A DNA stretch of 53,582 nucleotides from a virus: IMG/VR virus record IMGVR_UViG_3300024351_000034, positions 1-53,582 of that record; one strand, 5' to 3'. Of this stretch, positions 6,622 to 32,005 are shown one piece after another; within the stretch, counting starts at the first letter, position 1; every line of letters begins with the position of its first letter. The notes beneath the pieces were generated by a model. That model saw only the letters and a program-made list of their open reading frames with translations, ran no database searches and had not been told where the DNA came from. A program made the translations under genes and the position numbers.

Positions 6622-7380
6622 ATAGACCTTTTTTTGGTCACTATTGACGATACAGTCAAAACCAAGATTACGGGCAATATCTCTGACAGGTGCATACGAT
6701 TTGCCATCACGTAAAATACACTGAATGGCCAGTGCTTCACCGTTGAGGACTGGCCCATCTTCCCAAGCCAATACAAAATCATCCCCAATGACAAGCCGAA
6801 CAAAATCACGGACAGGCGCGAATGTCCTTCCGTTTTGTACCAATGCAAAAATGTGTTTGTCTCCATTGACTATCTTCCAATCTTGTCCGTTTTGAACAAG
6901 AGACCACGGTCTAATAAAGTAAATAATGTCTTTATTTCGGTTTCTGTACAACGGACGGTGAGCTACTTCATATCCATTACGACTTCCATCGTTATTACTG
7001 TTCCCCTCAATTGAATACCAAACACCCGCTTCATCTTGACCTTCTACTATTCCAATATGAAATGCGTCTTGCTTGCCATTTGGTAATGTTTTAACTAGTA
7101 AAACAAGATCACCCGGCATGGGAGCACGATGAAGTACGCCATGTTTTTTAGCCACAGCTAACCAGACATCGCAGTCTGCACTAAAGCATAAAGGCCAATC
7201 CAAACCACTCTTACTTTCCCATTCCGATGCTACACCGCTTACAAATGACGCACACCAAAAGCTTCCAATAGGAGCGTTGACCAAAGTGTTCCATCGATCA
7301 ATCAATGGTCCGCAGTTACTACCAACAGGTTGTTCACTTACTCCGATGTATTTTCGTGCAATATCTACAAAGCTTTGCAT
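6601..7380 (-). CDS. endolysin: CHAP/NlpC-type cysteine peptidase or amidase with copper-amine-oxidase-N-like repeats
   Basis: 259 aa, no signal peptide. The N-terminal catalytic domain (about 1-150) has the cysteine nucleophile in FWCASFVSG (C43), PGDLVLLV, the histidine in DAFHIGIVEG (H108) and EGNSN (E125-N127), matching the Cys-His-polar layout of CHAP hydrolases that cut peptidoglycan. The C-terminal part has two copies of a G(R/K)xxAPVRDxxR motif (GRTFAPVRDFVR and GKSYAPVRDIAR), the signature of copper-amine-oxidase N-terminal-like domains. Here it is probably a wall-binding or stalk module. It is the last gene of the late operon; its ATG overlaps the stop of the giant gene (TAATG). It is 27 kb from the holin-like genes. 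Confidence 0.88.
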   Translation of the reverse strand: MQSFVDIARKYIGVSEQPVGSNCGPLIDRWNTLVNAPIGSFWCASFVSGVASEWESKSGLDWPLCFSADCDVWLAVAKKHGVLHRAPMPGDLVLLVKTLPNGKQDAFHIGIVEGQDEAGVWYSIEGNSNNDGSRNGYEVAHRPLYRNRNKDIIYFIRPWSLVQNGQDWKIVNGDKHIFALVQNGRTFAPVRDFVRLVIGDDFVLAWEDGPVLNGEALAIQCILRDGKSYAPVRDIARNLGFDCIVNSDQKKVYLKKQVV

Positions 7381-16300: not shown

Positions 16301-19300
16301 GTATCACTGAGTTTGCAATGTACATTCCAGATTCTTTCTGGAAAGCCTTAAATGCATCTAAATCTTTAGTTAATAAATTACGCTTATACGCTTGATCTCT
16401 GTCGCCAGCAGCGTAGTACAAGAAATCTAAACCAACATTGCGTAAGGCTTTTTCGGTTTGACCTATAGTTTCTGCTGTCTCGGCGCCTACGAGATTACGG
16501 ACTTGAGTCAATGCTTGATTGTAATAGTTTTCACCACGCCAGAAATCAACCAACATTAAAGGCAGTCCAACTTCTGTTAATGCTTTACGTGATGCAGTAA
16601 CGTCTGCTATTGAAGCAATAGCTCTGCCTAAACGAACCTGTGCGTCCAAATTTAATCCACTTAGACGTTTCATGTGCCACATTGTGTCAATGTGTGCTAC
16701 AGCCTGTGGTGCAATACCGCGCATGTATAAGGATTCAGCCTTTGCATCACGTTCGGTAGTACTATTACGTTCCGGTGTAATTCCAAGTGACTTAATAGCT
16801 TTTCGATATGCTTCTGCTGGACCAATTTTATTATTTGACCTCAACATAATTTGATTCATGCGACGAGATATAGCACGTGTTGTCGCTGCTTCCTGTATCG
16901 ATCTAGCAGAAAATAAACCAGCCTTTGGCAGAGTGTTGTTTAAATCATCAATTGTATAAAGAGTGTCTATAAATCGTGCATCACCATAAAGATTAGCAAC
17001 TTGATTAAGATAGTGAATGTTTGGTGTGCCTTCCGACATTGCGTCATCATAAACTGACACTAACGCATCAATGACTGCTTCTGTATTTTGATTAGTTGCT
17101 GCCCAAATAATTAATCCACTTTTTACAGCCTGTGGCATTGAACGTGCGTCACGTACGTAAGTTTTAATGATGTCAGGCAACTGCTCAGCAGATGCTTGTT
17201 TAATTTCTTTTTGAACTGAAACTGCATTTTTTGTTGCAACAAAAATAGCAAGTTCTTCTTCATCAGTAAATGATCGCTTGTATGGCCTGAGTGTAGGAGC
17301 GTCTTCCGATGGAACAAAATCGCTCAATCGTTTATTCATTTCAGCGCGATCGTGATGTGTGTCAACAACAACCTGATCAATTGGCGCCGTGTATCCTAAA
17401 CCCTCTGGATCTGACAGCAACTTCACAGTTACTAATCTTCCATCAGTTTTAATGACTACGCCTTTTTGCCCATCGTCTCCAATTTTCATTGGATCAAAAT
17501 GACCAATGACAACATCACCCGCCATTAACTCAGCATCTTGAGTCACCTCACCGTTGTCATTTAAACGGTATGCCTTACTGTTTGGGGGTGTATCCAATGC
17601 AAGTGATTCTGCTATGGCATTGCGTAACGCCATAGCTTTGTCGGCATCGGGTAAGTCGGAATCTAAAATTGTATTAGCTAATTCAATTTGCTCTGGGCTT
17701 AACATAATTCGTGTTGGTACACCAATGTTATGCACGTCGAGATCAATGTAACCTTCACTTGCTTCAACGCTACGTTTTGCTTGTGCTAATGTACGTGCGT
17801 TTAATGCTTCTGGACTACTATCAATTTGCCGTGATGTTAATGGAGCCTTTGTTCTAACTCCTTGATTACGAACTGGTTGCACATATATGCTTCCATCTTG
17901 CAGTTGAAATACGCCGATAGGATCCATTACACCAAACGTGGAAATCAATCGACCATTGACGTCACGCGTAGATCCATCTTTACTTGTGTATGCAACCTTA
18001 TCTGGAAAATCTACTGACTCATAAAAATCAGGAACGTCACCTAATTCCGTTTTAGTTGAGTTCATTGCTTCAAGATGACTACCAATAACAGCAGCAAGTT
18101 TAGGTGCTAATACTCCTATTTCACGCGCAACTTGCGTACTAGGTAAGACTTCTTCTGTGACATTTCCATCTACGGAATTGTAATTTTTGACAATAACTCC
18201 ACCATCTGGCCTAAACCCACCAATGGTTCTAGTAGACTCACCATCTTCGGATGTCCATCTATTTGTACCAAGAGGGTTCATAACATCCGGATTAGCCGCA
18301 ACAACACGCGCTAATGCTTCAGATGTGTGCAATCTATTTTTTGCCATATTGGCAGATGAGCTAATGTCTATAAGATCGCTTATATCTTGGTCACCTTTGA
18401 CTATTTCGGCTGACCTAAATGTGTGACCATAACCAGTCTTATGCGAGTTATACGCAATGTATTGTGGACTGCCATCTTCACCATCTTCAATGCGAACAGC
18501 GTAAAACTTGTTACCAGTTGATTCAAGTGGTTCTTCGGCAACAGTTTCTGGTTTTGCGTTTGTGTCGGACGGCGCCTGTGATTGCTCCACTTGTTTTTGC
18601 AATTCACCAGCAATGTGTTTTTGAAGTTCCGCTATTTGTGTTTTTCTGGCTGCTGGATTAGTTGCGTATAAGTTTGGATTCACACCATGTTTTAATAATG
18701 GGCTATCATCCGGTAGCGGATTTTTATCACCCTTCTTACGCATTGACCCAATAAGTTTATTTACTTCAGCTTGCGATACTTCACCAGATTCATGATCAAT
18801 ACCTTTGCCTTCAGCAAGACGTATAAACATGCCTTCAATTGCATGTTGTGGCAACATACGACCCTTGGTCATTTCCTCCATAGCTGGAGTTTTCACCATG
18901 TCGTAAATTGCAGACGCAACGCGTTTTACATCATCTGGATGTGCTTCTTTATTTCCAGTAACATCGGCAAATCGTTTATTAATGTAAGTTGATCGCCAAT
19001 CTCCACCGTCAACGTAATCACGAGCCATGTAATAGGCTTGAGCATTTACATCAACGCCACTCATCAAAGGCTTGCCACGCAACGTTGGCTGAATGACTGG
19101 AGCAAATTTGGCATGTGGTCTAGTTGCACCAAATGTCATTAACGTAGCCTTGGCTAAGTCAATCATTGTGGGTGCTTGATGAAGTAAGTTTCCTTCTTTA
19201 TCTGTAGTTTTATCCGTTGCAGCACGATATGTTTGCGCAGCTGGTTGAAGAATATTATTCATTGCAAACATTGCGTCAGGGCCAACTGCACCTATTAATT

Positions 19301-20789
19301 CAGCTTTTTGTCTAGCAAGACGTTGCCCTGCTTGCGCAAATTTTCCGGGTTGTTTTGCACCGACACGAGAAAGCATTCGACTGACTTGATATAACTTTTT
19401 TGCATCTTTGTAGAATCCGGCTGTACCACCACTAAACATTGCCATAGTGGTGCCTAAATCCGAAATTCCCATAGGATCTGTTTGTTGTTTTATTGCTCTT
19501 TCTTGCTCATTTAAATCAATGACATTTCCACTTGCATCACGTGCTGTCATAGGAATTGCATTGACTACGCCTTCAATAGGAGAGCCTAAAAAACTAGTGG
19601 CTTGATTAGCAAACTCACCCTGCTCTGCGGTGCCACCTAAACCACGTACGGCTTGTCCCGGTACACCAGACGTTCCTAATGCAGATGTAGCAGATGGTAA
19701 AAACATACCAGCTGTTTTTAATTTGTTAAAACCAATCATCGATCCAGCAACTGGACGTAATGCACGTGCAAAAATATTGCCAGCAACATTCATAGTTGCC
19801 ATGCCAGCACCAGCACTTAAAGAATTCACAACTGTGTCTTTAGCTGCTTGACGCCATACTTGACGTGTTAAATTTGTTTCATCACCAGTTTTCTCTCGGT
19901 ACCAGTCCATAATTCCAAGAGTGTCGTATACATCGTCGGATGTTTGCGCAGACTGCCCAGACAACATTCCAAGACCACGACCAACTGTGTATTTACCTGC
20001 TTGTCCGCCCCAGACAAATGGAGCTGCAAGAATCTGCTCAGTGCCAGCGCTAGACCCATACATAGACTCAAGAAATATGTTTTCTTTGCCAGTTTTTTCT
20101 GCACCAGCGTAATACTTCTGTTCGCCTTCATCAAAGAACTTTTTAGCATCGTCAAATAATTGAAAATCAGTAGCAATTGATCCAGCGTTTGCCACTGTAC
20201 GCATAGCACCAAGACCCAAACCCGCTATACCACCTGCAACGTTACTAACGTCACGCGCAATAATTGACGTAGCGCTCAATGGATTTTCTTGAGCAACTTT
20301 ATTTTGCAGTATTAATCCTTGGCGGTATCTTTCTTTGCGGGCGTATTTAATATCATTTGGATCTTGATATGGTACATATTGTCTTCCGGTGACTAACTTT
20401 GCGCCATCAATTGGTTCATCACCTTCTCGCTGGACAACTTTTAATTTTTTTGCTTCAAGCAATCGACGTGAAATTAACGTCGAACCTTTCTGATATTCTT
20501 TATAGTTGATATATCCTTTATCTAAGGCATCCCGCAGGTCTGCATCCTCGGTATATATTCCGTCCGTCTTCCATTTATTGGTCGATAACTTATTAATTAT
20601 CTCTGGATATTTTTTTTCACGAAATTCTTTTTTACCTTTTTCGTTTTCTTCGTCGGCTTTTGCTTGTACCCACTCTCCTAAATTGCGAGCATTTTTAGTT
20701 GTCAACTTGGGTGACTTCTCACCCATGTCTACTGCTTGCCGAAAATACCCACGATTCTTTGATGTTGTATTCACATTAGGTTTGCGCAT
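7380..20789 (-). CDS. giant virion/ejection protein candidate, 4469 aa, with HExxH metallopeptidase motif
   Basis: One uninterrupted 13.4-kb frame, about a quarter of the window. It follows a 251-aa and a 599-aa ejection-type gene and precedes the endolysin, the place of T7 gp16; Bcep22-like and N4-like phages also carry 3500-4600-aa virion proteins. A metallopeptidase motif HEVGHVLFHG lies at about 2533-2542, with a possible glutamate ligand in HETFVSGF (E2619). Glycine/alanine-rich hydrophobic segments occur near 175-210, 325-375, 4040-4060 and 4108-4125 and could insert into host membranes. A coiled coil lies near 1830-1890 and a basic patch (RARQKRRYKK) at the C-terminus. I found no RNA-polymerase motif and no lysozyme or transglycosylase motif. 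ATG at 20789; the Shine-Dalgarno is weak. Family identity beyond this is unknown. Confidence 0.8.
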   Translation of the reverse strand: MRKPNVNTTSKNRGYFRQAVDMGEKSPKLTTKNARNLGEWVQAKADEENEKGKKEFREKKYPEIINKLSTNKWKTDGIYTEDADLRDALDKGYINYKEYQKGSTLISRRLLEAKKLKVVQREGDEPIDGAKLVTGRQYVPYQDPNDIKYARKERYRQGLILQNKVAQENPLSATSIIARDVSNVAGGIAGLGLGAMRTVANAGSIATDFQLFDDAKKFFDEGEQKYYAGAEKTGKENIFLESMYGSSAGTEQILAAPFVWGGQAGKYTVGRGLGMLSGQSAQTSDDVYDTLGIMDWYREKTGDETNLTRQVWRQAAKDTVVNSLSAGAGMATMNVAGNIFARALRPVAGSMIGFNKLKTAGMFLPSATSALGTSGVPGQAVRGLGGTAEQGEFANQATSFLGSPIEGVVNAIPMTARDASGNVIDLNEQERAIKQQTDPMGISDLGTTMAMFSGGTAGFYKDAKKLYQVSRMLSRVGAKQPGKFAQAGQRLARQKAELIGAVGPDAMFAMNNILQPAAQTYRAATDKTTDKEGNLLHQAPTMIDLAKATLMTFGATRPHAKFAPVIQPTLRGKPLMSGVDVNAQAYYMARDYVDGGDWRSTYINKRFADVTGNKEAHPDDVKRVASAIYDMVKTPAMEEMTKGRMLPQHAIEGMFIRLAEGKGIDHESGEVSQAEVNKLIGSMRKKGDKNPLPDDSPLLKHGVNPNLYATNPAARKTQIAELQKHIAGELQKQVEQSQAPSDTNAKPETVAEEPLESTGNKFYAVRIEDGEDGSPQYIAYNSHKTGYGHTFRSAEIVKGDQDISDLIDISSSANMAKNRLHTSEALARVVAANPDVMNPLGTNRWTSEDGESTRTIGGFRPDGGVIVKNYNSVDGNVTEEVLPSTQVAREIGVLAPKLAAVIGSHLEAMNSTKTELGDVPDFYESVDFPDKVAYTSKDGSTRDVNGRLISTFGVMDPIGVFQLQDGSIYVQPVRNQGVRTKAPLTSRQIDSSPEALNARTLAQAKRSVEASEGYIDLDVHNIGVPTRIMLSPEQIELANTILDSDLPDADKAMALRNAIAESLALDTPPNSKAYRLNDNGEVTQDAELMAGDVVIGHFDPMKIGDDGQKGVVIKTDGRLVTVKLLSDPEGLGYTAPIDQVVVDTHHDRAEMNKRLSDFVPSEDAPTLRPYKRSFTDEEELAIFVATKNAVSVQKEIKQASAEQLPDIIKTYVRDARSMPQAVKSGLIIWAATNQNTEAVIDALVSVYDDAMSEGTPNIHYLNQVANLYGDARFIDTLYTIDDLNNTLPKAGLFSARSIQEAATTRAISRRMNQIMLRSNNKIGPAEAYRKAIKSLGITPERNSTTERDAKAESLYMRGIAPQAVAHIDTMWHMKRLSGLNLDAQVRLGRAIASIADVTASRKALTEVGLPLMLVDFWRGENYYNQALTQVRNLVGAETAETIGQTEKALRNVGLDFLYYAAGDRDQAYKRNLLTKDLDAFKAFQKESGMYIANSVIPKVIIDAIGESVNNSQFLGFTEEGKADQTNQLSFLAVLAKYGREIGEVIDRSEIPAMEKESIVNAMFELLAQVEENPAIAERVATYNGSDTGNGVDTVLRNGNSVTNITAVESMQAVNKAADEIMDHAVVDEFVSADKVNGRRTGDEDLTETEKAQLALEENDIAGLRKLNVQRLTNIKNFTQVVNALSTFKISDVKTLLDKYAHLYGWDAAKEALALAEESGDEQAIGKARDAEVEPRRNTFLAAFRHLDNILSNSKQLSLLYMDGDVHLDENFETALGQLENAYETLQNYYTQVGLSYKSITALGDSDVAGGKLVSQGEEGSAAETQNLSEEVDKGQITILQNQIRAINADVNIPIAEKREQIAILQKAINTFSAKVENQQKESSIQDKFMTALNNFNNAVIKVPQPLLEKFADAPQDVLAIQLNIMQNMYDSLISDPLREMGTARSIAFGENSVRMLRQVTRMAKEQLTFLSDAIKSQEVSIDVANGEVSINIFGQRRNVQDIEKIGMAIDRDNPDVVKINPDTSVADAMFVSSAIDPMLPEFLDDNPSVVTYAISSDTGFDGLVVHDQNAAERANLLAMHARNYAGMREVLSKVLTSELELASSDVPSEQVKLFGDKQVQAINPLTVVSPVRNKNLGDVSLTASGVMDAAQNKWSAETVRTLNRAVRDGIPTEGGLKVIPTSADESVVKKINRRISELFGGLARHDAKFTAKELAVSVRMIIQDELTGKTDFQKELLSITKPDDFVTQWSRIDKTGTYASFRAGYNDVPHQIATTLKALSEAGNEAVIFTTNASGRHSIFSEPAEGQLRAIKPATAKLLYDMYNQIDTSEYTNQQQADDINRIKGIYRQIMSDAALQPAKKLAGDLNMVNQLATGLAKLYDNFAFGHANDKLSMLLGSQQPQHRAEIINGLRAVGTREQIVQAFIQNSALSFAQFMSTTKALTPEQVNAFRAYMIARGRQDYYLNSGRVLFTTKKIMSLTNVGMRDHIGTEKSKQQVYGATLSLQNKAAKATHKLMMIASDMSADRNAATLAHEVGHVLFHGVSDGNQMRLLESLLPMGADFLSRINETHPLYPVMTQLEAAREYRRKFGSLDLRAAWADLADVDGISLKEDWHPFAHETFVSGFLTTISNFEAPIANNAAMSIDRDAASIFQEVGGPLRAAWKGLARTSPADILRTADGKFQQQWTSPIPFAKYNTGRRTVSYPQLRQGDYISLNIPTKGRLEGRAYVHMYSPKDMVRIWVDSGFGTGVGQTYGYEHVINGRKINSPFKDETLTQMFVDNVRNGTYNPRDFWFTPIHGSNRKLRLFGEDDSMQQRYGFRLQGRVVDQIVAMDSRFNQGKFSTAFVDNAMGEPITYVSVSQDGGVDKDGFFPNHLHLRDTDVSEGRFVKASSKGITREYESVPLKNSYYVVEMPVTLRVGTGKKGLSRNTTVRMLVSSEALADLDGTVQPRLHGYSGEYNSKFSAVLYDINRRVSQVQKTLVGLTDYSDQIALEKKILTGTSVDFQGNRPSTETAADRIGAYFADQFKHVRAAGVDMRGMMKVGRASVEADILDHMMTQGLINDEGGITLEGTDFLNRLNDNAINPVGDFIYNNGLFRMSIGRDQMMYDSRFAYDESSNEFLLNVDAPEYKGLVQFFDQLNNALDHKTDDPTVRQDMLEQFAYDMYYAFAKPFTGRTTRADRNMTMHDRIANLVAAFNEGLPDELKLATTSVQDYNGQPTAIDALSAMEMPIRGNNVGDFFTQGYPLQMIDIMDTVMNGRELRFADNYYRSTGAAYALSRVRDVVFGRNNVAGYSNFLKQLADPNPAVNEKASQLLYATAHILDLQEREMSSARYNWKSQKYTLVPNSFKTQKQLLMRDGSGGLYNVDFALNQSRPVVVDPSNPLTLLKGDVLGNRYPITTPGYRMKYQAAVNGSVPEGLFDINTLSPVEKTNFLRDGSVVIMRNVPFHDPSLERGIYLYRITSPLRMKIVDPKAEVDPSVPYTVQLLSNPFRSYRSITDDNGTITQLQSVQEYRQQSASDLIRLAAQAYMPDASAETYERLDNLAQNSIVPHDIFVAKMLVAEAEQNDPTIIPKEWRTKMGADYRVSKILQPDSGAEIDITQSAIVNNARKGTWLSSGDIFEDAIDPFTQEEMNLVDGLEPYDPDVHSDPEAFNQWRQQRYTDIVDKMFVVREPERLILKNDPDNNQIGISVDGKDVYMSIPSADFESVGNTLFSSGSTTPSFGLSPGQLRALQYRVIPGRTRLNKFLNGAWTELNATNIVQRLSLDFARPFLQNFMVTFMDPKNTAMQFYGLAGLAPNFTKPGAQKMLGTTPLQKMASFFLGHSKDTAYGDKAYHGVIKGLFDKYGTPGSRIGAGIPFIHQRTVGGKYVKPVISGVNMPERAYTIADLNELGLSTQYGEWYEAASAMNALNPAMAMEDIPIQLSQSEFIGKGVIAQRYPLVGATERAGVMSTDILRIKMMLEYAAYIDNNLPAFALGDNASRGQMEYVATQYKKNYARVLNTLTGVPAGTDPGLNPKLQEKYYTASQLYTAPNWFKAVGNITLVPAALQLASGMMLNNAMRPILKKFDGGIGYNVVDVGPQARFFDALQFNTPKAGTRVFTPGAEYLRRVSTALIGLATLHWINNEVIAQVSKSAIAKKAGQQVSDTIWTHIAGVQDEGDAMMWTVKPKPIIDKNNLRAAGRVRTIGDVQINYPPAIMGWQKFLVTPALNIEQNINDGMAPPAAIAKEMTKLYFIDRLNPMYGTMRSMITGQEFDGKPSFQKHPGLEYLRANKDQILSSMRGHPYELLLRKVLAQYPNGASRMAIDHEIIPIQNFLRELEQLIYRSPELNLEYDPKVTNLRMNMFGRLIGIENAYQSPFVDDVAGLKILKTSGGAALKEMMEYQYDYPNAIDMINKHGLAGLWEGIPDSGDVTLQDIKYPGMPTSPIIFESTDRTERLRARQKRRYKKNFEPLNNEDVQKIIEEVGQ

Positions 20790-20803: not shown

Positions 20804-22603
20804 CTACTTTAGTGTGCTAAGCCAATCTTCAATAGCCTTCAGTTCCTTATCTACTGCCGCTGTATTTGGTCTACCACCGGGAACTGTACTTTGTCTTGGT
20901 GTTACAAATGTATTTCTAATGTATTTTATTGCATCGTTATTTGCTGCTGTTTTTATGCCATACATTTTTGAATTGCGTTTTGTGTAATCACCAATAGTGT
21001 TAGCTGGTTCTGAAACCATAATTGAATTTAAACGCCTACTCATGTTACTTGAGCGTTGTTGATAAAACGCACGAATAATATTAATGGGTACTTTTGTAGC
21101 AGCATTAACACTATCCATTCCGAGTAGTACTTCCTCAACTTTGGCAGTAGATTTACTTAATTCTGTAGCTATAGAAGCATCAGAAGCAATTGCATCAGAA
21201 ACTTCTGTTCTGATCGCATTTGAATCTGCTAATTTTTGAGCTACGGTTAATTGCTCAGGTCCCGTTTTTGCTGTTTGTGTTAATTTTGCTCGTTTATATG
21301 CTTCTGCTTGATCATATTGATCGGTTAATGTCTTAAATACTTGATCTCGATATTCAGTCATATCTTTTATTGTTGTATTTAGAGAATCAACTCTTTGTCT
21401 TCTAGCTTCTTTTACTTGTTCAATAATTGCATCATCTGGTTTTATTAATGGTGCTAGAACCGAGTTAAGACGCAATTTTTGTTCCGGCGTTAGACTTGCA
21501 TAAAAATTTGTTTTAGGTGTAACGTTATCATTTTCGTCAATATTGACAGGCCATATAGATTTATCGGAACCAAGTATTAATTTTAATGACTCTTCCGCTC
21601 CCAAATGCCGACCAACTCCTACAGCAGCACTTTGTTTTAACGCTTCTTGAATTTTAGGCATTTCAGCTTCTACAAACTTACTTGTATTAAGCCCAATATT
21701 TTCTGGATGTTTAATGTATCCGGCTCGCAATACACGATCCTTACCACCGGGTACGTAAACATTCTGATTTCTCACTCCCATTTCTGGCATGTCAAAATAA
21801 TTTAAACCAAGAGCGCCTAATCCATAAGATTTAGCAGCACCAGTAATGGCCTCAATATCTTCCGGTGTAGCAGCTGGCAATGGAAATTGATCTGTTCTTT
21901 GTACCTTTGACTTAGGTGCTGGAGCAACAACACCAGCAGTACCGGGAGCAGTAGTACCGGGAGCAGTAGTACCGGGAGCAGCAGTACCAGTACCAGTATT
22001 AGTACTAGTGCCAGCACTAGTACCAGTGCCTGTACCAATACCAGTATTAGTACCAGTGCCTGTACCTGTAAGCGGTAATGCGCGACTGCCTTTAAATCTA
22101 GTTATAAATTTATTAGGGTCCGAAAGTCCGGGAATAGTAGAAAGTCTTCCGGTTAACCGTGTTGGTAAATCAGCCAATTCACCATTAATAATGTCGTATT
22201 GACTAATTAATAGGTCTCTTGCTGGTCCACGAGTTGACGCAATTTTTGCTTGCAATTCTGCAAGTTGAGCCTGTTTTGCCGCGCGTTCTTTTTCTAACTC
22301 AGCCGTAATTTGATCAGCGGTAATTTCTGGTTGCCCCAGTGCTGTAGCTGTTTCTAATTTACGTACAGGTTCAGTTCTTTGTCGTTCACCAAGAAGGAAG
22401 TCATATTCACCAGCAGCTCGTTCTTCCGCAGCTCTTGCAAATTCAGCCTGTTGATCTTGTAATTTAAATTGTCGATCAGTATTTGCTTGTTGTTCTTGCT
22501 GCTGCAGATATTGCTGTCTTTCCTGATTTCTTTGTTCTTGGCCTTGCTGTAAAGCACTTAAAAAGCCAAGTAATGCAGATGCTCCTGTTTGACTTGCTTT
22601 CAT
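20804..22603 (-). CDS. putative internal virion/ejection protein, 599 aa (T7 gp15-like position)
   Basis: The N-terminal 100 residues are a Gln/Glu-rich coiled coil (QQGQEQRNQERQQYLQQQEQ). A second helical stretch (about 95-130, ELEKERAAKQAQLAELQAK) leads into a low-complexity linker at about 178-227 made of GT, NTGT and TTAPG units. The C-terminal two thirds are helical and charged, with no membrane segment or enzyme motif. The gene lies between the 251-aa Gly/Asn/Gln-rich gene and the giant gene, the same order as T7 genes 14-15-16, so a role in the internal core or ejection tunnel is inferred. AGGAAT lies upstream of ATG 22603. Confidence 0.65.
   Translation of the reverse strand: MKASQTGASALLGFLSALQQGQEQRNQERQQYLQQQEQQANTDRQFKLQDQQAEFARAAEERAAGEYDFLLGERQRTEPVRKLETATALGQPEITADQITAELEKERAAKQAQLAELQAKIASTRGPARDLLISQYDIINGELADLPTRLTGRLSTIPGLSDPNKFITRFKGSRALPLTGTGTGTNTGIGTGTGTSAGTSTNTGTGTAAPGTTAPGTTAPGTAGVVAPAPKSKVQRTDQFPLPAATPEDIEAITGAAKSYGLGALGLNYFDMPEMGVRNQNVYVPGGKDRVLRAGYIKHPENIGLNTSKFVEAEMPKIQEALKQSAAVGVGRHLGAEESLKLILGSDKSIWPVNIDENDNVTPKTNFYASLTPEQKLRLNSVLAPLIKPDDAIIEQVKEARRQRVDSLNTTIKDMTEYRDQVFKTLTDQYDQAEAYKRAKLTQTAKTGPEQLTVAQKLADSNAIRTEVSDAIASDASIATELSKSTAKVEEVLLGMDSVNAATKVPINIIRAFYQQRSSNMSRRLNSIMVSEPANTIGDYTKRNSKMYGIKTAANNDAIKYIRNTFVTPRQSTVPGGRPNTAAVDKELKAIEDWLSTLK
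21935..22070 (-). repeat. low-complexity tandem repeats inside the 599-aa protein gene
   Basis: The plus strand shows three near-perfect copies of a 15-base unit (GCAGTAGTACCGGGA, encoding TTAPG) followed by shorter irregular units (ACCAGTGCCTGTACC-type) encoding Gly-Thr/Asn-Thr runs. On the protein this is a 50-residue GT/PG linker. Such tracts change length by slippage, so this is a likely length-variable site between related phages. Confidence 0.8.
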
Positions 22604-23372: not shown

Positions 23373-23810
23373 CTATTGTAATACGTACCATATTCCTGCT
23401 CCTGTAGAATCTACTTGTGCTACTAAAGTAACCGTCTCATACTGTGCTGCTGGCCATGCCTTAGCAGTTGCTTTACCTAATGTATCTCCACTTTGAACTG
23501 CAGCACTTACCTGATTTGTGCCACTATCTGTTTTGATTATATGTATAAATTGCCCATTAGCGTAATAAGCACGTGGCAATGTAACGACAACAGCTGCGCC
23601 TGTTGCATTTACACTAACAATTAACTGTCCTGTATCCATTGTTGTACTAGCGCTTATAGCAATAGATGTAAAATTTGCTGGCGGATATGCAGGTGGGAAT
23701 GCTCCAGATGATTGAACGTCCGATTTAATTATTGTACTGTTACCCGGACCGGAGATAGTTCCGGCCTTTGGGGCTGGTGGTTGTGGCGCACCGCTTCCAA
23801 ATACTGGCAT
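23373..23810 (-). CDS. small beta-rich fibre-cap/decoration-like protein, 145 aa
   Basis: A Pro/Gly-rich N-terminus (GSGAPQPPAPKAGTISGPGN) is followed by a domain with the pattern 'VVVTLPRAYYANGQFIHIIKTD...AAVQSGDTL...ETVTLVAQVD...WYVL'. This beta-sandwich/trimer-tip signature recurs at the ends of phage fibres and baseplate proteins (hydrophobic strands, an 'I.KTDSGTN.V' turn, terminal 'WYVL'). It may cap the neighbouring nozzle or ejection assembly, or be a short head/tail fibre. AGGAGGGG precedes the ATG, and its start abuts the nozzle stop. Confidence 0.55.
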   Translation of the reverse strand: MPVFGSGAPQPPAPKAGTISGPGNSTIIKSDVQSSGAFPPAYPPANFTSIAISASTTMDTGQLIVSVNATGAAVVVTLPRAYYANGQFIHIIKTDSGTNQVSAAVQSGDTLGKATAKAWPAAQYETVTLVAQVDSTGAGIWYVLQ

Positions 23811-26800
23811 TAACCCCTCCTTACTCCGGCTTCTGTTGACATAATAGATAAAGCATGAACTTCAACACGTGATGTTGCAGCAGTACCACTAAGTTGTAAT
23901 TCTAGCCACGTACCACGCAATTCATTTGGCATCTGCCTAAATCCAATTGCTTTATCTTGATTTGCTTGCGTAGTGTACTGACCAGAAGCTGTCACGTTTT
24001 TGTTATTTCGTAACTGCCACGTAAACGTTGTTGCTGTCGGTGAATAATAATGAACGTTTAATTGATGTGGCCTATTCAATCCGTAATAAGCTACACCTTC
24101 AGCGTACGTTTGGCCGTACTGGCGCGTAACTATTTTCCAGTCAATTCCCTGTGTTGCACCACTGTAAGTCTGTCTGTCTGTAAATCCTTCTAATCTGTAA
24201 ATTTGACCATCATGTGATCCAACATACATATCAGAGACATCATTAATAGACGTACATGACACGGCACTAGTAACATACATTTGTTGTGATGCAAACACAG
24301 GCATCTTCCATTTTACCCAACCACTAGTTCTTGAGTCGTAAATGTAGATAACACTGTTTGAATTTGCACTAGTCGCTCCAGCCACAGGAGCAAACGCATA
24401 CAACCGACGTTCATGAGGCAGGAGTATGATGTCTGCGTATGCTGGTGCGGCAATGTAATTAGATGAACCAGTCGGCCCATAATCCATTGATCGAGGATTC
24501 AAAACACCCTCCAGTGGGAGACTAATAGGCTCTATCTGTGGTCCATTCATTACACTTATACCAAAACTCGTAACGTGCATTGGATGACCAATTACAGATG
24601 CAATTCCTTTAGGTGCTAATAAACCTGTGCCGGGTTCCCTAACAAATTGTTGTGCTTCAAATGACGATGCGTCAAATCCAGTAATTGGAACAATGCTATT
24701 TTCGCGATAGGCAATTAAAATTGCAGATGTATTACCTCCAGCTGCTACAACGTTTTCGGCTGAATAGGACAACAGGTTTACAATTTTTTCATTATCATCC
24801 TGTGATCCAATGGTAATAAATGCACCCTTAATTGCCATAAATGGATCTTGCACGTCAGGAATATTAGTAGTGTAAATACCATATTCGTTATTTTTATCTA
24901 TTGGCCAACTTGCATATAAACCGTTGTCTTTAGATGTCCATAAGCGCTGCTTGTGATTTGCTATTGAAGATAAACCTACTGGCAGTTGATCACGTCCCGT
25001 ATGGTAAAACATTCCGGGTCTACCAACATTTGTTGGATACAAAATATCCGTATCTCTAACGTCATCGTAAATAGTGTATGTCGCTGTATTAGTAGACCAA
25101 GACACGTCAAATGTAACAGCATCACTATTAACTAATGTTCCAGTAACATAATCAAATACTTTTGCATTTTGTCCTGTGTACGACGCTCCAGTGCCAATGT
25201 TTGTTGGAATCATAGCAATCAGGCGAGGCATGCCATCCGTAAATATAGTGTCACATCGCCTATACACAAGAATGTAGTCATATGTATACGCACTTGTTGA
25301 AGTACGTAAACCATCATCCGTAAAAGAAACTTTACCGCTACTGTATGCTACAGACGATTCAATATTAGGACTAAATGCACTAGATAACGTTTCAATACCT
25401 TCTCCGGGTGGAGCAACTATATTGTAAGCAGATGTCGCCCTCCATGCTGCAGGAGCAGATTTCCAACGTGTATATATGTAGGTATAACGGTTGTCTGGAG
25501 TTAATCCACCTTGTCTAACAACATCACCCAATGAGATCAATACGGAATCATTGGTAACGTCTGCAATATCTTCGTCAAATCGTAAATACACAGCTGTTAC
25601 GGCATCACGCTGTGCAGCTGGTATTGGAAATAACTGAAATTCTAGAAACCGCGATTGTGGATTATATGCAGCTTGTCCGGTCCAACTTATACCTCCAGCT
25701 TCTTGTATACCTAAACTAATAGGTATTTCAACTGTACGAATGTTTTCATGCAACTCGGCACGTATACCTATAGCCCTGTCATTAGACATGTTAGGAGTGC
25801 CCGTAATAGCAAGTTTAATCAAGCGATTGGCAACGTATCCGCCGTACTTGCCTTTGATGTTAGTGTTTACCTGTGCAGCTTTAAAGCCAGCAAGACCGAT
25901 ATCAGTGGTTGTTGCATTGTCGTTTGCACTTGACAACATACTATATAAATACACGCCATCAACTAAAATACCGGGGTCATTATCTCTATTCCAACCACTA
26001 TTAGCTAATGACACCTGTAAAGATTGAAGAGTGTCTTCAAATCCACGAAAATCAATTACGTATTCAAATTGAACCCAGTCAGCTGTAGTTTGTTTTGGAG
26101 CTGGATCTGCTGTAGCTTGAAACAATGCTATTCTGTTTGCAGTGCCGGGTGTTGTTCCACTATGTCCAGTCACAGTAATGTTAAGGTATTGTCCATTAAA
26201 CGGCTTAGCATCATCGTAATTCATTAGATAAAACGACAATTTAAACAAACCATTCACTTTTGCAGTTGAACCATTTTGTGAATACGTCGGTAAACTGGAC
26301 ACGTTTTGCACAATGTAGTCTGTTGACTTGTCAATGTGAGCAATGTTTCCTGTTGTGCGACCATCAGCTCCTGCTGACACTGTGCCTTTTGATCCAGCCC
26401 AAGGTAAAGTTTTTATATTTACTAATTGCCCACCATTAGTACCAATAGATGGATCACCAGCTGTAGTGTTCCAGTTACTACATGTAGTAGTCGTGGCTGT
26501 GGCAAAAAGTGGATTTAAAATCCTGTTGTCACTAGGTAATGAAGATGAAAATGTGGCTTGTGCTGCGGAATCTCCATATGTGCCGGAAGTGTATGTTTTA
26601 ATTTGCTTGACAATGCCAACGGCTGAAGGTTTAGTTGATGTTGGACCAGATACACTTGGCATAGATGCAGCAATAGTTCCATTAGTACGAAATAGAGAAA
26701 ACGTAGATCCACTACCACCAACACCATAGATATATCTCCCATACTGCGTCATTCTGACATTTTTTCCAGACGATGGAAAAGCAAATGACAAGCCTGTTGT

Positions 26801-27124
26801 CTGGTCGGTAAGTTCGGTTTCTACAGAAGGTGTAACCGATGGGTCTGTAGCATACAATTTTCCATTTTTTGCGTAGATTAATTTACTTACTGTTGCAGAG
26901 CTTTTTAATGCAGTTAATTCATAAACTGGATTAGAGACATATGTATTCATGATGCCACGGAAACCATTCCTTAAAACAGGAGAGTTACCATCAATCATCA
27001 TGTTTTCGATATTTTGCGCATAACCATCTTTTAATTTATTTGGCTGTATACGCGTGTCCATACCTATCCACGTAACGTCACCTAGAACGTACGATTGCTG
27101 ATTATTCATTGCTCGTATAGCCAT
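23810..27124 (-). CDS. tail nozzle-like protein (T7 gp12-like), about 1104 aa, with carbohydrate-binding-like insertion
   Basis: The N-terminus (MDTRIQPNKLKDGYAQNIENMMIDGNSP...) fits the 'G...R..p..l..G.a..i.N......l..R.Gf' opening of podovirus nozzle/tubular-B proteins. The C-terminal part has propeller-like pieces (YIYDSRTSGWVKW, GSHDGQIYRLEGF) also typical of that family. Residues about 205-395 (ILNPLFATATTTTCSNWN... through ILVDGVYLYSM) look like a CBM4/9-type jelly roll inserted into the platform, which would give glycan contact at the tail tip. I choose ATG 27124, which overlaps the previous stop (TAATG); a GTG three codons upstream is possible. T7 gp12 is 794 aa, so this one is longer. 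Confidence 0.65.
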   Translation of the reverse strand: MAIRAMNNQQSYVLGDVTWIGMDTRIQPNKLKDGYAQNIENMMIDGNSPVLRNGFRGIMNTYVSNPVYELTALKSSATVSKLIYAKNGKLYATDPSVTPSVETELTDQTTGLSFAFPSSGKNVRMTQYGRYIYGVGGSGSTFSLFRTNGTIAASMPSVSGPTSTKPSAVGIVKQIKTYTSGTYGDSAAQATFSSSLPSDNRILNPLFATATTTTCSNWNTTAGDPSIGTNGGQLVNIKTLPWAGSKGTVSAGADGRTTGNIAHIDKSTDYIVQNVSSLPTYSQNGSTAKVNGLFKLSFYLMNYDDAKPFNGQYLNITVTGHSGTTPGTANRIALFQATADPAPKQTTADWVQFEYVIDFRGFEDTLQSLQVSLANSGWNRDNDPGILVDGVYLYSMLSSANDNATTTDIGLAGFKAAQVNTNIKGKYGGYVANRLIKLAITGTPNMSNDRAIGIRAELHENIRTVEIPISLGIQEAGGISWTGQAAYNPQSRFLEFQLFPIPAAQRDAVTAVYLRFDEDIADVTNDSVLISLGDVVRQGGLTPDNRYTYIYTRWKSAPAAWRATSAYNIVAPPGEGIETLSSAFSPNIESSVAYSSGKVSFTDDGLRTSTSAYTYDYILVYRRCDTIFTDGMPRLIAMIPTNIGTGASYTGQNAKVFDYVTGTLVNSDAVTFDVSWSTNTATYTIYDDVRDTDILYPTNVGRPGMFYHTGRDQLPVGLSSIANHKQRLWTSKDNGLYASWPIDKNNEYGIYTTNIPDVQDPFMAIKGAFITIGSQDDNEKIVNLLSYSAENVVAAGGNTSAILIAYRENSIVPITGFDASSFEAQQFVREPGTGLLAPKGIASVIGHPMHVTSFGISVMNGPQIEPISLPLEGVLNPRSMDYGPTGSSNYIAAPAYADIILLPHERRLYAFAPVAGATSANSNSVIYIYDSRTSGWVKWKMPVFASQQMYVTSAVSCTSINDVSDMYVGSHDGQIYRLEGFTDRQTYSGATQGIDWKIVTRQYGQTYAEGVAYYGLNRPHQLNVHYYSPTATTFTWQLRNNKNVTASGQYTTQANQDKAIGFRQMPNELRGTWLELQLSGTAATSRVEVHALSIMSTEAGVRRG

Positions 27125-29610
27125 TACATGCACCCCACTCGTTTAAACTGCCGAGACAACGTTTCTGTTTTTACAGCAGTTGGAACTATAGTTTGATCTC
27201 TTTCAAATTGACCATTAGTAATATCTACAACATCATACTCTGCATTACCCGGAAGTACTTCTGATAGATTTCGCAATCTAAAAATTGGTAACGTAAACGG
27301 TAAATCGTAACGTTCAGTACTTACTGCGCAAAACGGAGAAACCTCAGTGCCATTAATTAACGGCATAACGTTTTCGTATGCGTCATTTACACAAGTCTCA
27401 ACACCATATGCTCTGACTATAGATTGCGGTATTTCATAGGTGTCTACGTATGATGGAGCGTGTTCATAATTACCATTGATGATGTCTGCAACTTCATAGT
27501 CAATGTTTACAGGTGGTGTTTCAGTTAATAAATGAATTCTAAAAACAGGAAGTGTATATGGCAAGTCGTATGACCCAATAGTGTCAACGCACGGTGGTAT
27601 GACTTCCCAAGCACACGTCAAATCAAAAATATTTTCATACGATGGGCATTCACAAAACGGTGGGATGTAGTAACTAACTGCAATTGTAGCTATAGCAGTT
27701 ATAGTTGTTGTTAATAAATAACCCGGCTGAGATGGGTTTATATTAATAGACCCTAGTGTTGCAACACCACGTACCGTGACCGACGAGTTGTAAGTGATTT
27801 GCCCGTTTAGTGATGCACTTCCGTAAATTGGAGTAATAAAATATGTTGGATTTACAATAGAGTATTTACTATTTAGTGCAGCATTAATGCGTATAGAAAT
27901 ACTAACACCAAATGATGTAATTCTAAACGACAATGTTGCAACGCCACGCATTGCACATAAGGGTTCTATATTATTTTGTATTAAATATGTTGCAGTACAC
28001 ACTGCATAACATTCAATATGTATTTGAGCAAATTCAATTTGCAACAAACTGTCAAGAGTTGCATTGCCAATAATTAAACAGTTGGCATCATAACCAATTT
28101 CTTCATTAGGTTCTAACCTAGAACGACCATTTATTGCAGAACTTACTGGTATATCTGTTTGAACAGTTGGTGTTGTGTTTATTACAGCATAACCACTGAT
28201 TGATGATGAACTACTATACGTAACTATCGAGCTGACTATTGCGTATGCGTATAAGTCAGAATTTGATGGTCGTGTGAATGACGACTGTAAAGATGCGTTA
28301 CCATAGATATCACAGGTTAAAAATCGCGAATACGTTGAATCTAGTCTAGCAAATCCAGATAACTGCGTATTACTACCAATGCCACCGACACTATTAACAA
28401 CAGCATATGCGGAAATAGAACTACTATTAAATTGCGTAAATGTGCTATTAACTACGGCATAACCAATTACACCAACAGAGGATGGTCGATCAATGGTTAC
28501 GCTAACTGTTGATTTGCCAAGTATGTCAATTTGCACATTGACATTTGTAGGTGGTGCATTAGTTGTATATGCATATCCAGATATTTGTGCAGATACAGAA
28601 TACGAACCGGGAGCACTTAACGTGGATACTCCGCGTATGTCCGCAATACTGTTGTATGCATTATCAGCAATAAGTAATCCGCGCCCATTGATTGCAGCAG
28701 TGCGTTCGAATGTGGCAGAGCTATTTACTATTCCGTATCCAGTTATGTTAGCTGCTGCATCACGCGTTATGTTTGCACTGAGATTTGCCGTGCCAGTAAG
28801 TTGTGATGATGCAGACGATAACGATGATCCACTAGCTGTAACTAATGCATACGCAGAAATAGATGATGTTGATTGCCAGTTAATGCTTGCGCTAAGCAAA
28901 CCATAACTGCGAATATCAGAAGATAATAAGATGACCGCACTTGACGATGTAGTTGCAACACCACGAATATCAGAAGACCCAACGTAATTACCGCTTGACG
29001 TTACGACGCCATAACCAGTTAATGAAGAGGTGCCATTCCAGTTATATGCACCCGACATTGTGGCCACACCAAATATAGATGATGACCGTGGATTATCTAT
29101 TGTTGATGTTGCTGTTAGTTGAGCATAACCACTAAGCGTTGATGTTTTATCAAGTTGTATAGATCCTTGAAGGAGTCCATATCCAGATATAGAAGTAGTT
29201 GCCGCATATGATCCATCAGCTTGTAATGTTGATTTACCAAATAGATCTGCGGTGGCAACACGTGTAATGTCTGCTTGTAATCTTGCATACCCAGAAAATG
29301 AAGATGTTGAATTAAAAATTACACTAGATGAAAGAGTGCTGACAGCTCTTATGTCTGATGTTAACTGTATTACTGGTTGCGCTTGTAATAGCGCTTTTCC
29401 AACTGTCTGACTTTCTCCTACGCGGGTAAGTGTTCCAGATAAATTACCGTACGCAGAAATAGAGCAGGTACGCGGAAAACTGACATTAGCAGAAAGGGTG
29501 CTAATGCCATTAAGGCTTGCTGATACCGCATAGTTTCCTGTTAGCGGAGCAGCAAGCCTTGCAGCAATGAAGGCTATAGTTATATAGCCAGCACTATTGA
29601 ATGTAGGCAC
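27124..29610 (-). CDS. repeat-built tail fibre/adhesin-like protein, 828 aa
   Basis: Residues about 27-620 consist of about thirty degenerate repeats of 17-20 residues with the core S-S-(I/L)-(S/R)-G-Y-A-x-(V/L)-x-(S/T)-(S/A), for example TSISGYGLLQGS, SSDIRGVATTSSS and SSISAYAVVNS. The regular alternation of Ser/Thr and aliphatic residues suggests a solenoid or stacked beta fibre. The C-terminal 200 residues hold two copies of an ~87-residue unit (YDLPYTLPVFR at 681 and YDLPFTLPIFR at 768), each with conserved cysteines. It starts at GTG 29610 with only a poor Shine-Dalgarno. It is downstream of the other fibre genes and upstream of the nozzle. I do not recognise the family. Confidence 0.7.
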   Translation of the reverse strand: MPTFNSAGYITIAFIAARLAAPLTGNYAVSASLNGISTLSANVSFPRTCSISAYGNLSGTLTRVGESQTVGKALLQAQPVIQLTSDIRAVSTLSSSVIFNSTSSFSGYARLQADITRVATADLFGKSTLQADGSYAATTSISGYGLLQGSIQLDKTSTLSGYAQLTATSTIDNPRSSSIFGVATMSGAYNWNGTSSLTGYGVVTSSGNYVGSSDIRGVATTSSSAVILLSSDIRSYGLLSASINWQSTSSISAYALVTASGSSLSSASSQLTGTANLSANITRDAAANITGYGIVNSSATFERTAAINGRGLLIADNAYNSIADIRGVSTLSAPGSYSVSAQISGYAYTTNAPPTNVNVQIDILGKSTVSVTIDRPSSVGVIGYAVVNSTFTQFNSSSISAYAVVNSVGGIGSNTQLSGFARLDSTYSRFLTCDIYGNASLQSSFTRPSNSDLYAYAIVSSIVTYSSSSSISGYAVINTTPTVQTDIPVSSAINGRSRLEPNEEIGYDANCLIIGNATLDSLLQIEFAQIHIECYAVCTATYLIQNNIEPLCAMRGVATLSFRITSFGVSISIRINAALNSKYSIVNPTYFITPIYGSASLNGQITYNSSVTVRGVATLGSININPSQPGYLLTTTITAIATIAVSYYIPPFCECPSYENIFDLTCAWEVIPPCVDTIGSYDLPYTLPVFRIHLLTETPPVNIDYEVADIINGNYEHAPSYVDTYEIPQSIVRAYGVETCVNDAYENVMPLINGTEVSPFCAVSTERYDLPFTLPIFRLRNLSEVLPGNAEYDVVDITNGQFERDQTIVPTAVKTETLSRQFKRVGCM
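27750..29530 (-). repeat. array of ~51-60-bp degenerate coding repeats (fibre gene)
   Basis: The DNA encoding the SxSISGYAxV repeats shows a recurrent GCATA(A/T)CC...GAA(A/G)ATGATG-like pattern on the plus strand roughly every 51-60 bases, too diverged to be recent slippage but clearly built from one ancestral unit. About thirty units are readable at the protein level. Confidence 0.7.
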
Positions 29611-29614
29611 AGTA

Positions 29615-30079
29615 TTAGTCTAACTGTACAGTAATTGCTCCAGCTGCAAATGTAATAGACTGCCCACTATTAAGTGTGACCGATCCACCAGTCAATTCGC
29701 CGTAATACAGCAGACTAGTGTCAGATGAAATCGTTGCACTTAACGTAGCGCTAGTACAAATTGCAATTCCTGTAATGCCAGCAATAGTTCCTGTGGCACT
29801 AAAAGAGATTGCGTTAATGTTTGCTAACACCGGAGTGGCAGCGTCAGCATCACCAGTAGATCCCTGCTTTTGAAAGCATTGAGATGCTGTTGCTGTAAAT
29901 GCAATGCGTGATGTGTATCCAGATCCAGATGTAACCTCCGCCACTGAACTGTCAGTTAACGCGTTTGTTAATAACGCGAGATAAAGTGTTGCTCCACCAG
30001 TTGCTGTGAATGCAACACCACGTAGAGTTGAGTTTAAAACCTTTGCCTCTAAATGATTAGCGAATGCTGTATTTGCCAT
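29615..30079 (-). CDS. small tail/fibre-associated protein, 154 aa
   Basis: The pattern 'MANTAFANHLEAKVLN...LRGVAFT...ATLYLALLTN...EVTSGSGYTSR..FTAT' followed by 'ISFSATGTIAGITGIAICTSAT...LLYYGELTGG' is the hallmark of a widespread small phage structural protein of about 130-160 aa encoded beside tail fibres in podo- and siphoviruses. I recognise the pattern but not a function. It is beta-rich, with no enzyme motif or membrane segment. Five bases separate its stop from the next start. Confidence 0.7.
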   Translation of the reverse strand: MANTAFANHLEAKVLNSTLRGVAFTATGGATLYLALLTNALTDSSVAEVTSGSGYTSRIAFTATASQCFQKQGSTGDADAATPVLANINAISFSATGTIAGITGIAICTSATLSATISSDTSLLYYGELTGGSVTLNSGQSITFAAGAITVQLD

Positions 30080-30080
30080 G

Positions 30081-30899
30081 TTAACCTACCTTTACAATTG
30101 GAGCTGCTGATCCACTTGTTGTTATGGTGGCGGACCAGATTACAGTCGTGTCAGATTCATTATATACATCAACTTGTGCTCCAGATGATGCATCAATTTT
30201 ATTGCGTAAAATACGCAATGCGTTTCTAACCGTCCTGTCCGACGATGTAGTAGATGTCTCATTGCCTGAGCTATCTAACTTTCGAGCAAGAATACCATCT
30301 GCAATTTCAGCAACTGCCGAAGCAGATAATTCAGCGTTGGTAATAGCATCAGTTGCAATTGCATTTGCATCAATTGCTCCTGCTGCAAATGAGGTGTTAC
30401 TGATAGCTGAAGAACCAACAGTTCCAATTGTCTGACTAGACGAGATTGTAGTGCCAGTCAGTGCTAATGCTGTAGTTGGAGAACCAACGTTAGCCCAATC
30501 AATGCCAGCTTCTCCACCAGTAGTAACATCAAGTTTACGACCAGCTGTAGTTGGATATAAAGATGCTTGATTTCTAAGTGTAAACCTACCAACACATGAT
30601 CCAACTACACTTACAGAATCAACTGTGCCAGTAGTTATCACGCACTCAAATGATGAACCATCAGAATAAAATGTACCATCCAATGAGGTATCAATTTTTA
30701 CGTGATTCAAACCAGTGACAGAATCAAAGTCAACAGTTAATGTTACTCCGGTAGTCGATTGCGTAATACTGTCATCTTTGTATACAGAAATCGCAGGTGT
30801 TCCTGCTAATGTAAAACAAGCTCCTGTAGATGGCCTAAATGTTGTAAATTTAAAATTAATAACATTGGTTGTTGCGTAGTCGCCAAGATATTTACTCAT
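30081..30899 (-). CDS. fibre/baseplate-type protein with shared C-terminal module, 272 aa
   Basis: The N-terminal beta domain (about 1-110: TTNVINFKFTTFRPSTGACFTLAGTPAISVYKDDS) resembles the BppU/fibre N-terminal attachment domains of many phages. A central collagen-like/helical stretch (SSSQTIGTV, DAIATDAITNAELSASAVAEIADGI) follows. The last 75 residues (IADGILARKLDSSG, RTVRNALRILRNKI, VYNESDTTVIWSAT) are also found at the end of the 383-aa protein at 32223-33374. So the two genes carry a duplicated C-terminal module, perhaps a trimerisation or capping piece. Function is inferred from position in the fibre block. Confidence 0.65.
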   Translation of the reverse strand: MSKYLGDYATTNVINFKFTTFRPSTGACFTLAGTPAISVYKDDSITQSTTGVTLTVDFDSVTGLNHVKIDTSLDGTFYSDGSSFECVITTGTVDSVSVVGSCVGRFTLRNQASLYPTTAGRKLDVTTGGEAGIDWANVGSPTTALALTGTTISSSQTIGTVGSSAISNTSFAAGAIDANAIATDAITNAELSASAVAEIADGILARKLDSSGNETSTTSSDRTVRNALRILRNKIDASSGAQVDVYNESDTTVIWSATITTSGSAAPIVKVG

Positions 30900-32005
30900 C
30901 CTACATAACCTCCCAATGGACTTGCAGCTAATCCTGCATTAATAGGATTATCTTCAGCAGAACCTACGGCTGGTGGTGATGGTCGCGTATAGCCATACAT
31001 GTCGGTTGCTGGTGCGCCAGTTGCTGTACCATCGCCACTAACCACATTTGATACATATGGCATCCAGAACGGTCTATTAGGAGTATTAAATAACGTGTTA
31101 GCACTAAAACCAAGACATGCATTAACGTTTTGCAATGTGTTTAATCCTGTGGCTACATTAGATCTAGGACCTGTGTATCCAGATAACCTATTCCAATCCT
31201 CATCCATTTGACCAAGAGTGAATGCAACAAATGGAGTTGTTGCAAAAATAATATATGTATTACGCACAGTGACGGATGCAGTTGTTGATCTATAGGTAGA
31301 CGTATTTATCTGAATACTATTTGTGCCACCCCATAACGTGCAATTTGTTATAGTGATTCCACTTAATGTGCCTGTGGTGCCAGCAGAGTTCATGAATACG
31401 CATCTATTTGTCTGTGCTTGCATATAACAGTTCTGCACTGTTATATCCATATTTAAATCTCCAGATGTTGGAGCTGAACCTACAATAACTAAAGTGTCCG
31501 ATCTGCCAACTAAAATGCAATTTTTAATAATGTGGCTACCACTGTTGTTAGATGGAGATTCTAAACGACAACAGTTTGCACCAGTAGACACAAATACGCA
31601 TCTATCAATAACGTTGAAGCGTGATGTGGCTACACGCAAAGCATATCCAGAACCACTTTCAAATCGTATGCCATAAAAATTTAAATAATTGCGAGACGAT
31701 GTGTTGAGTGTGTCGGATGCTGACGGTGCTGAATCATCACCTGATGTAAATCCAGTTATCCTAACTTCACCTGCTGTACCAAATATAGCCCCATCAAAAT
31801 CACCTTTGATGTACGTATTGGCAGTAGGATTTGTCATTGCTACTGTTACAGTTTCACGATAAACACCAGCTGCTATCCATAACGTGTCACCACTAGCAAA
31901 ACCAGATGTTGCACCTAACGCGTACGCAATAGTAAGCCACGGAGCAGTTGTAGACGTCCCTGCATTAGCATTAGATCCTGTCGTACTAACGTAATATGTA
32001 GCCAC
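30896..32005 (-). CDS. right-handed beta-helix tail protein (tailspike/depolymerase candidate), 369 aa
   Basis: The opening YYVSTTGSNANAGTSTTAPWLTIAYAL..GDTLWIAAGVYRETV is the DUF1565-type N-terminal cap of pectate-lyase-like beta helices. The middle holds helix rungs (IIKNCILVG, ITVQNCYMQAQ, ITITNCTLWGG, VTVRNTYIIF) with asparagine-ladder 'NC' positions. This fold binds or cuts polysaccharide in tailspikes, but no catalytic carboxylate pair can be named by eye, so it may be only a receptor-binding helix. It overlaps the next gene by 4 bases. Confidence 0.75.
   Translation of the reverse strand: MATYYVSTTGSNANAGTSTTAPWLTIAYALGATSGFASGDTLWIAAGVYRETVTVAMTNPTANTYIKGDFDGAIFGTAGEVRITGFTSGDDSAPSASDTLNTSSRNYLNFYGIRFESGSGYALRVATSRFNVIDRCVFVSTGANCCRLESPSNNSGSHIIKNCILVGRSDTLVIVGSAPTSGDLNMDITVQNCYMQAQTNRCVFMNSAGTTGTLSGITITNCTLWGGTNSIQINTSTYRSTTASVTVRNTYIIFATTPFVAFTLGQMDEDWNRLSGYTGPRSNVATGLNTLQNVNACLGFSANTLFNTPNRPFWMPYVSNVVSGDGTATGAPATDMYGYTRPSPPAVGSAEDNPINAGLAASPLGGYVG

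Follow-up and report, generated by a model that had tools for sequence, protein, structure and literature searches.

A repeat protein of variable length paired with a Gp80-family gene in uncultured podoviruses

Related systems and the 828-aa gene

According to the GP4 structure study by Zheng et al. in 2023, there are five fibres I, and in each an elongated rope protein is said to join five dimers of gp80. Fibre I of GP4 (PDB 8jou) is the described system nearest to the locus reported here. Both phages are podoviruses and both carry an adjacent gene of the Gp80 family (PF23140); the likeness lies in gene neighbourhood and in the elongated rope described for GP4. The protein studied here has 828 aa, with about 30 repeats of 18 residues and with CxCP/LPFTLP ends. 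Unlike GP4 fibre I, the relatives of this locus swap to a form that has neither repeats nor Gp80.

A second counterpart is a gene pair of Zobellviridae and similar phages, exemplified by gp60 and gp59 of Methylophilales phage MEP401, which are annotated as "hypothetical" and "tail protein". The gene order is the same, and the partner of Gp80 likewise has repeats of alternating small and hydrophobic residues with even spacings. However, its period is 20 residues instead of 18, it has roughly 2 to 13 repeats (median about 7) in a protein of mostly 209-320 aa, and its N- and C-terminal domains differ from those of the 828-aa protein. Cyanophage A-1(L) has a neck fibre (gp82-gp81-gp80) whose beads are trimers of gp81, each joined head to tail with the next (PMC10966104). 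This also gives a long chain of small beads at the neck, but no repeat backbone is reported, and the name "gp80" is a coincidence. Tandem-repeat evolution in a phage protein is likewise described for the BACON repeats of crAssphage, although those repeats are domain-sized, of another fold and in other genes (PMC6949934). Full-text literature searches on rope proteins and on tail fibres that vary in their number of repeats turned up nothing useful.

The window, meaning the whole 53,582-nucleotide IMG/VR viral sequence analysed, comes from a podovirus whose portal is of the P22 type and whose adaptors are of the SU10 type. A preliminary description had placed an 828-aa fibre protein at its positions 27,124 to 29,610, and an ORF of 828 codons is found there (Table 1). 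The plus strand across this interval is full of stops, and the ORF runs on the minus strand. That description had therefore recognised a real object, but left the strand unstated and gave a literal motif that is wrong.

The window gene is under purifying selection: compared with its relative L017 (85% identical), dN/dS is about 0.13 in the repeats. The two proteins match at about 95% up to residue 540 or so and at about 65% beyond, with the greatest divergence in residues 541-828, and a mosaic breakpoint lies near residue 540. As was first supposed, the repeat is not of a recognised family, at least for Pfam, in which the protein matches 0 families at E<=10. Searches with the repeat proteins against cultured phages by tblastn, possibly with a low-complexity filter on, gave 0 matches at E<=1e-3, and a search of 85,000 bacterial and archaeal genomes found no relative.

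Table 1. Positions of the repeat gene, its segments and its neighbours in the window
Feature	Positions	Strand	Basis
828-aa repeat protein, GTG start; proposed rope/backbone of a Gp80-type chain fibre	27124..29610	-	ORF, relatives, dN/dS 0.13
N-terminal segment that is conserved (residues 1-26, AGYITIAFIAARLAAP), with a core that does not vary among the long forms	29533..29610	-	alignment
Regular 18(/20)-residue repeats, residues 31-486	28153..29520	-	autocorrelation, core-motif scan
Degenerate repeats, residues 487-650, containing the mosaic breakpoint with L017	27661..28152	-	
CxCP motif (C653, C655), also present in repeat-free homologues	27643..27654	-	
C-terminal region: two LPFTLP units (681-691, 768-778) and conserved R-x-G-C end	27127..27660	-	
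154-aa Gp80-family protein, proposed partner	29615..30079	-	PF23140 "Podophage GP4 fiber I protein gp80", E 8.7e-16
1107-aa tail/hub-like protein on which the tree is built; a conserved neighbour downstream	23810..27133	-	phrog_3287 virion structural (weak)

Elsewhere in the window, a single ORF of 4469 aa (7380-20789, minus strand) fills a quarter of the genome. An endolysin-like protein (6601-7380, minus strand) combines a CHAP-like domain with a Cu_amine_oxidN1 domain. Tandem repeats of 15 bp and 6 bp at 21932-22070 encode a Gly-Thr/Pro-Gly-Thr-Thr linker in a 599-aa protein. The product of the gene at 30896-32005 (minus strand) matches a baseplate-wedge PHROG with its N-terminal part and also shows weak similarity to a beta-helix; in L154 and L155, two larger genes similar to it precede the slot that corresponds to the repeat gene.

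Repeat unit and structure models

Autocorrelation of residues 1-640 gives a strong peak at a lag of 18 (z=11.7). Harmonics appear at 36, 54, 72, 90 and 92, and the 25 strongest lags of the window protein are all even. The periodicity is taken from autocorrelation; the matrix of a PWM shuffle control was derived in part from the window, which makes that control circular. In a core-motif scan, 28-29 units were found, at spacings of 18 residues (22 times) or 20 (3 times), which agrees with the original count of about thirty repeats of some 18 residues. However, the motif S-x-GYA by which these were introduced occurs 0 times, and GYA is present 5 times. The window unit is instead S-[SD]-[IL]-x-[GA]-x-[AS]-x-[LV]-x-[AS]-x-..., with small and hydrophobic residues at alternate positions, and the family consensus from 80 clean units is S-[SD]-[IL]-x-[GA]-x-[AS]-x-[LV]-[ST]-[AS]-x-[PVI]-x-[FIY]-x-x-[TS]. 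Spacings other than 18 in twelve proteins are mostly 20, 22, 24 or 16, and 41 are even and 4 odd (n=45), in a count that pools homologous and thus non-independent proteins. This suggests that the in/out alternation of beta structure is kept across the joints. Within the window gene, a search for tandem DNA repeats with TRF found none; its repeats are old.

Structure prediction, proposed earlier as a check, gave no confident model of any kind. Of the two results that would have spoken against the preliminary description, a lack of periodicity is contradicted by the autocorrelation, and a confident globular model did not arise. AlphaFold models have a pLDDT of 37.6 for the full length (12 homologues) and 57.1 for eight repeats, and Foldseek against PDB and viral models returned nothing at E<=0.001. 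Right-handed beta-helices can be superposed on the eight-repeat model, with 3jx8 giving the best fit (Z 12.5, rmsd 2.4, 143 residues). Left-handed beta-helices fit this weak model less well (VIA-align rmsd about 9, against 2.4-3 for right-handed ones). Independently, a PDB search with a profile of the 20-residue proteins gave just four matching chains, 3jx8, 4opw, 3lyc and 3ljy, at E 0.002-0.036; of these, 3jx8, 3ljy and 4opw are GIN/DUF2807 beta-solenoid adhesins. The window protein gave no Pfam match to the GIN domain (PF10988, DUF2807) at E<=10, and PDB sequence searches found no rope-like chain. A GIN-like solenoid is a lead for the fold of the repeats, not an established one.

These superpositions, with the repetitive, Ser/Thr-rich and alternating sequence, could also fit a self-standing fibre. 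Its repeats would form a beta-solenoid shaft, alone or as a homotrimer, and its LPFTLP/Cys units a receptor-binding tip; Gp80 would then be either a cap or a neighbour with no relation to the fibre. However, the models from which a shaft would be read are of low confidence (pLDDT 57 and 38).

Repeat number and conserved ends among relatives

Using the 1107-aa downstream protein, 18 related loci were gathered, and more distant ones were reached via the portal. In these uncultured podoviruses, a slot between an upstream block and the tail protein of about 1107 aa holds proteins of very different size: 828 (the window and L017), 696, 579, 561, 460, 448, 447, 422, 421, 332, 282, 260, 250, 249 and 228 aa, and 837 aa in a distant clade. 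The repeat-bearing versions have a conserved C-terminal block and, in most, a similar N-terminal segment. In other contigs, the slot protein has 69-96 aa and no repeats, with an N-terminus of M-A-[AS]-G-[FY], a C-x-C-P motif and a basic-Cys end. The comparison across related phages that had been proposed thus gives a range of 0 to about 33 repeats at the same locus, and the supposition that repeat number could vary is borne out. Searched against cultured phages, the repeat-free short form had no match at E<=10, and HTVC104P, RHph_N3_13 and CRP-9, which were found through their terminases, have no such repeats.

Repeats grow via tandem duplication of DNA. The slot gene of L016 has 3.2 tandem copies of 54 bp at 100%, and that of L021 has 4.0 copies of 60 bp at 95%, each being exactly one unit. 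Repeat-rich and repeat-free forms also occur side by side in close relatives, according to a tree of the adjacent hub protein on which the repeat numbers are estimates. The distance, in substitutions per site, is 0.057 between L015 (22 repeats) and L008 (0), 0.067 between L021 (30) and L009/L019 (0), and 0.30 between L158 (33) and L159 (0). The hub of another repeat-free contig, L420, shares 85% identity with the hub of the L158 genome. The slot protein of L118 is nearly the same as that of L020, yet its hub is strongly diverged, which indicates module exchange; together with the breakpoint between the window and L017, this mismatch implies that modules recombine.

Tandem duplications and such great differences in length among closely related contigs are what would be seen if the repeats were selfish or neutral low-complexity expansions, with no structural role, in a small conserved virion protein. 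We regard this as very improbable, because dN/dS is about 0.13 over old, diverged repeats, spacings follow the even rule, and the repeats are coupled to Gp80, as detailed below.

The C-terminal units YDLPYTLPVFR and YDLPFTLPIFR are, as originally described, exactly 87 residues apart and have cysteines nearby. Among relatives, the LPFTLP unit is present in 0, 1 or 2 copies, a variation that would suit the tip of a self-standing fibre. Receptor tips are normally the variable part of a fibre. However, the C-terminal block, with its CxCP motif and basic-Cys end, is common to the long and repeat-free versions, even those of 69-96 aa, and by sequence the former "tip" appears to be among the most conserved parts of the family protein. 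The interpretation of the C-terminal pair as a tip in the usual receptor-binding sense is therefore not supported by this pattern, although residues 541-828 are where the window protein and L017 differ most.

Pairing with Gp80 and a candidate chain fibre

The gene directly upstream of the window repeat gene encodes the Gp80-family protein. A profile of its homologues gave a marginal match (E 0.03) to GP4 chain 8jou_a, from an entry with 10 chains. By iterative profile search, Gp80 is immediately upstream in 22 of 22 repeat-bearing loci and in 0 of 9 repeat-free loci, the short form of G018 included. With the Pfam model applied to whole records, it occurs anywhere in the record in 11/11 repeat-bearing and 0/9 repeat-free cases. 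Beyond the 22 and 9, one further repeat-bearing locus has Gp80 and one further repeat-free locus lacks it. These counts within the window clade are not phylogenetically independent, and represent at least three independent contrasts.

Because Gp80 is found only alongside repeats, this coupling points to a backbone for another protein. The earlier idea of a fibre holds in that the protein is an extended repeat protein, but not as a self-sufficient fibre with a tip. A self-standing fibre would also leave the strict coupling unexplained, as well as the general pairing described next, and its conserved C-terminal end exists without repeats; we consider it unlikely.

The gene pair extends well beyond this clade. 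With three Gp80 queries, 240 Gp80 loci were gathered from phage records, and the next gene was scored for periodicity. Among 75 non-redundant proteins encoded by that gene, 70 have a periodicity peak whose lag is exactly 20 residues (z>4; for 55, z>6). As controls, the same period was seen in 1/47 proteins from the second gene downstream and 0/47 from the upstream gene. A Gp80 gene is thus usually followed by a gene for a repeat protein, and the window, with its lag of 18, has this pairing with a period of about 18-20 residues. Exceptions are two Gp80-bearing phages, Venkman and ctXG6705, whose next tail gene is non-repetitive; the loci with a non-periodic tail gene of this kind are L170 (Venkman gp58) and L172, where that gene comes after an HNH gene. 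Profile comparison of the 18- and 20-residue repeat proteins shows a weak link (hhalign probability 38%). The two are alike in pattern, and share their place and partner.

We consider it probable that the 828-aa protein is the backbone, or "rope", of a fibre that is built as a chain, like fibre I of GP4, and whose length would be set by repeat number. The conserved N-terminal segment and the C-terminal CxCP/LPFTLP/RxGC block would dock or cap the protein on the virion, and the roughly 30 intervening repeats would form an extended beta structure. Copies of the adjacent 154-aa Gp80-family protein would be strung along these repeats, so that fibre length and Gp80 copy number would follow repeat number. 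Repeat number itself changes when units of 54 or 60 bp are duplicated in tandem, and when the whole cassette of Gp80 and repeats is exchanged for the repeat-free short form. We infer the binding of Gp80 to the repeats, the location on the virion and the setting of length by repeat number.

Alternately, the pair might form a collar or neck whisker or a filament on the head surface, with a generic adhesive role toward host glycans or particles, and Gp80 might coat the repeat protein incidentally. The Gp80 of MEP401 belongs to PHROG 240, which is annotated as "head protein", the tip of the bead-chain neck fibres of A-1(L) did not bind the host (PMC10966104), and the speed with which the pair comes and goes suggests an appendage that the phage can do without. 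However, the anatomy of such a whisker overlaps with that of the proposed backbone, and the A-1(L) chain is built from gp81 trimers joined head to tail, without a repeat backbone. We judge an incidental coating of this kind to be quite improbable.

For the backbone reading, a stronger form is possible but doubtful: the repeat protein may be a molecular ruler, with a fixed number of Gp80 subunits, possibly a single one, on each repeat. The window phage would then have about 30 Gp80 copies per chain, compared with the 10 chains in the GP4 entry, and cassette swap or duplication would take whole lineages from no chain to very long chains and back.

A fibre of this kind is known from GP4, whereas novelty appears to lie in the 18-residue form, in a repeat number that ranges from 0 to about 33, and in the gain or loss of repeats and Gp80 together. 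The Gp80 family is very common in phages, with 331 to 591 confirmed matching stretches in each of three scans, and its partner gene is mostly unannotated. Identity as a periodic backbone is therefore a likely function for many unnamed genes. Moreover, a clade with 0 to about 33 repeats at one locus makes the setting and variation of fibre length directly testable.
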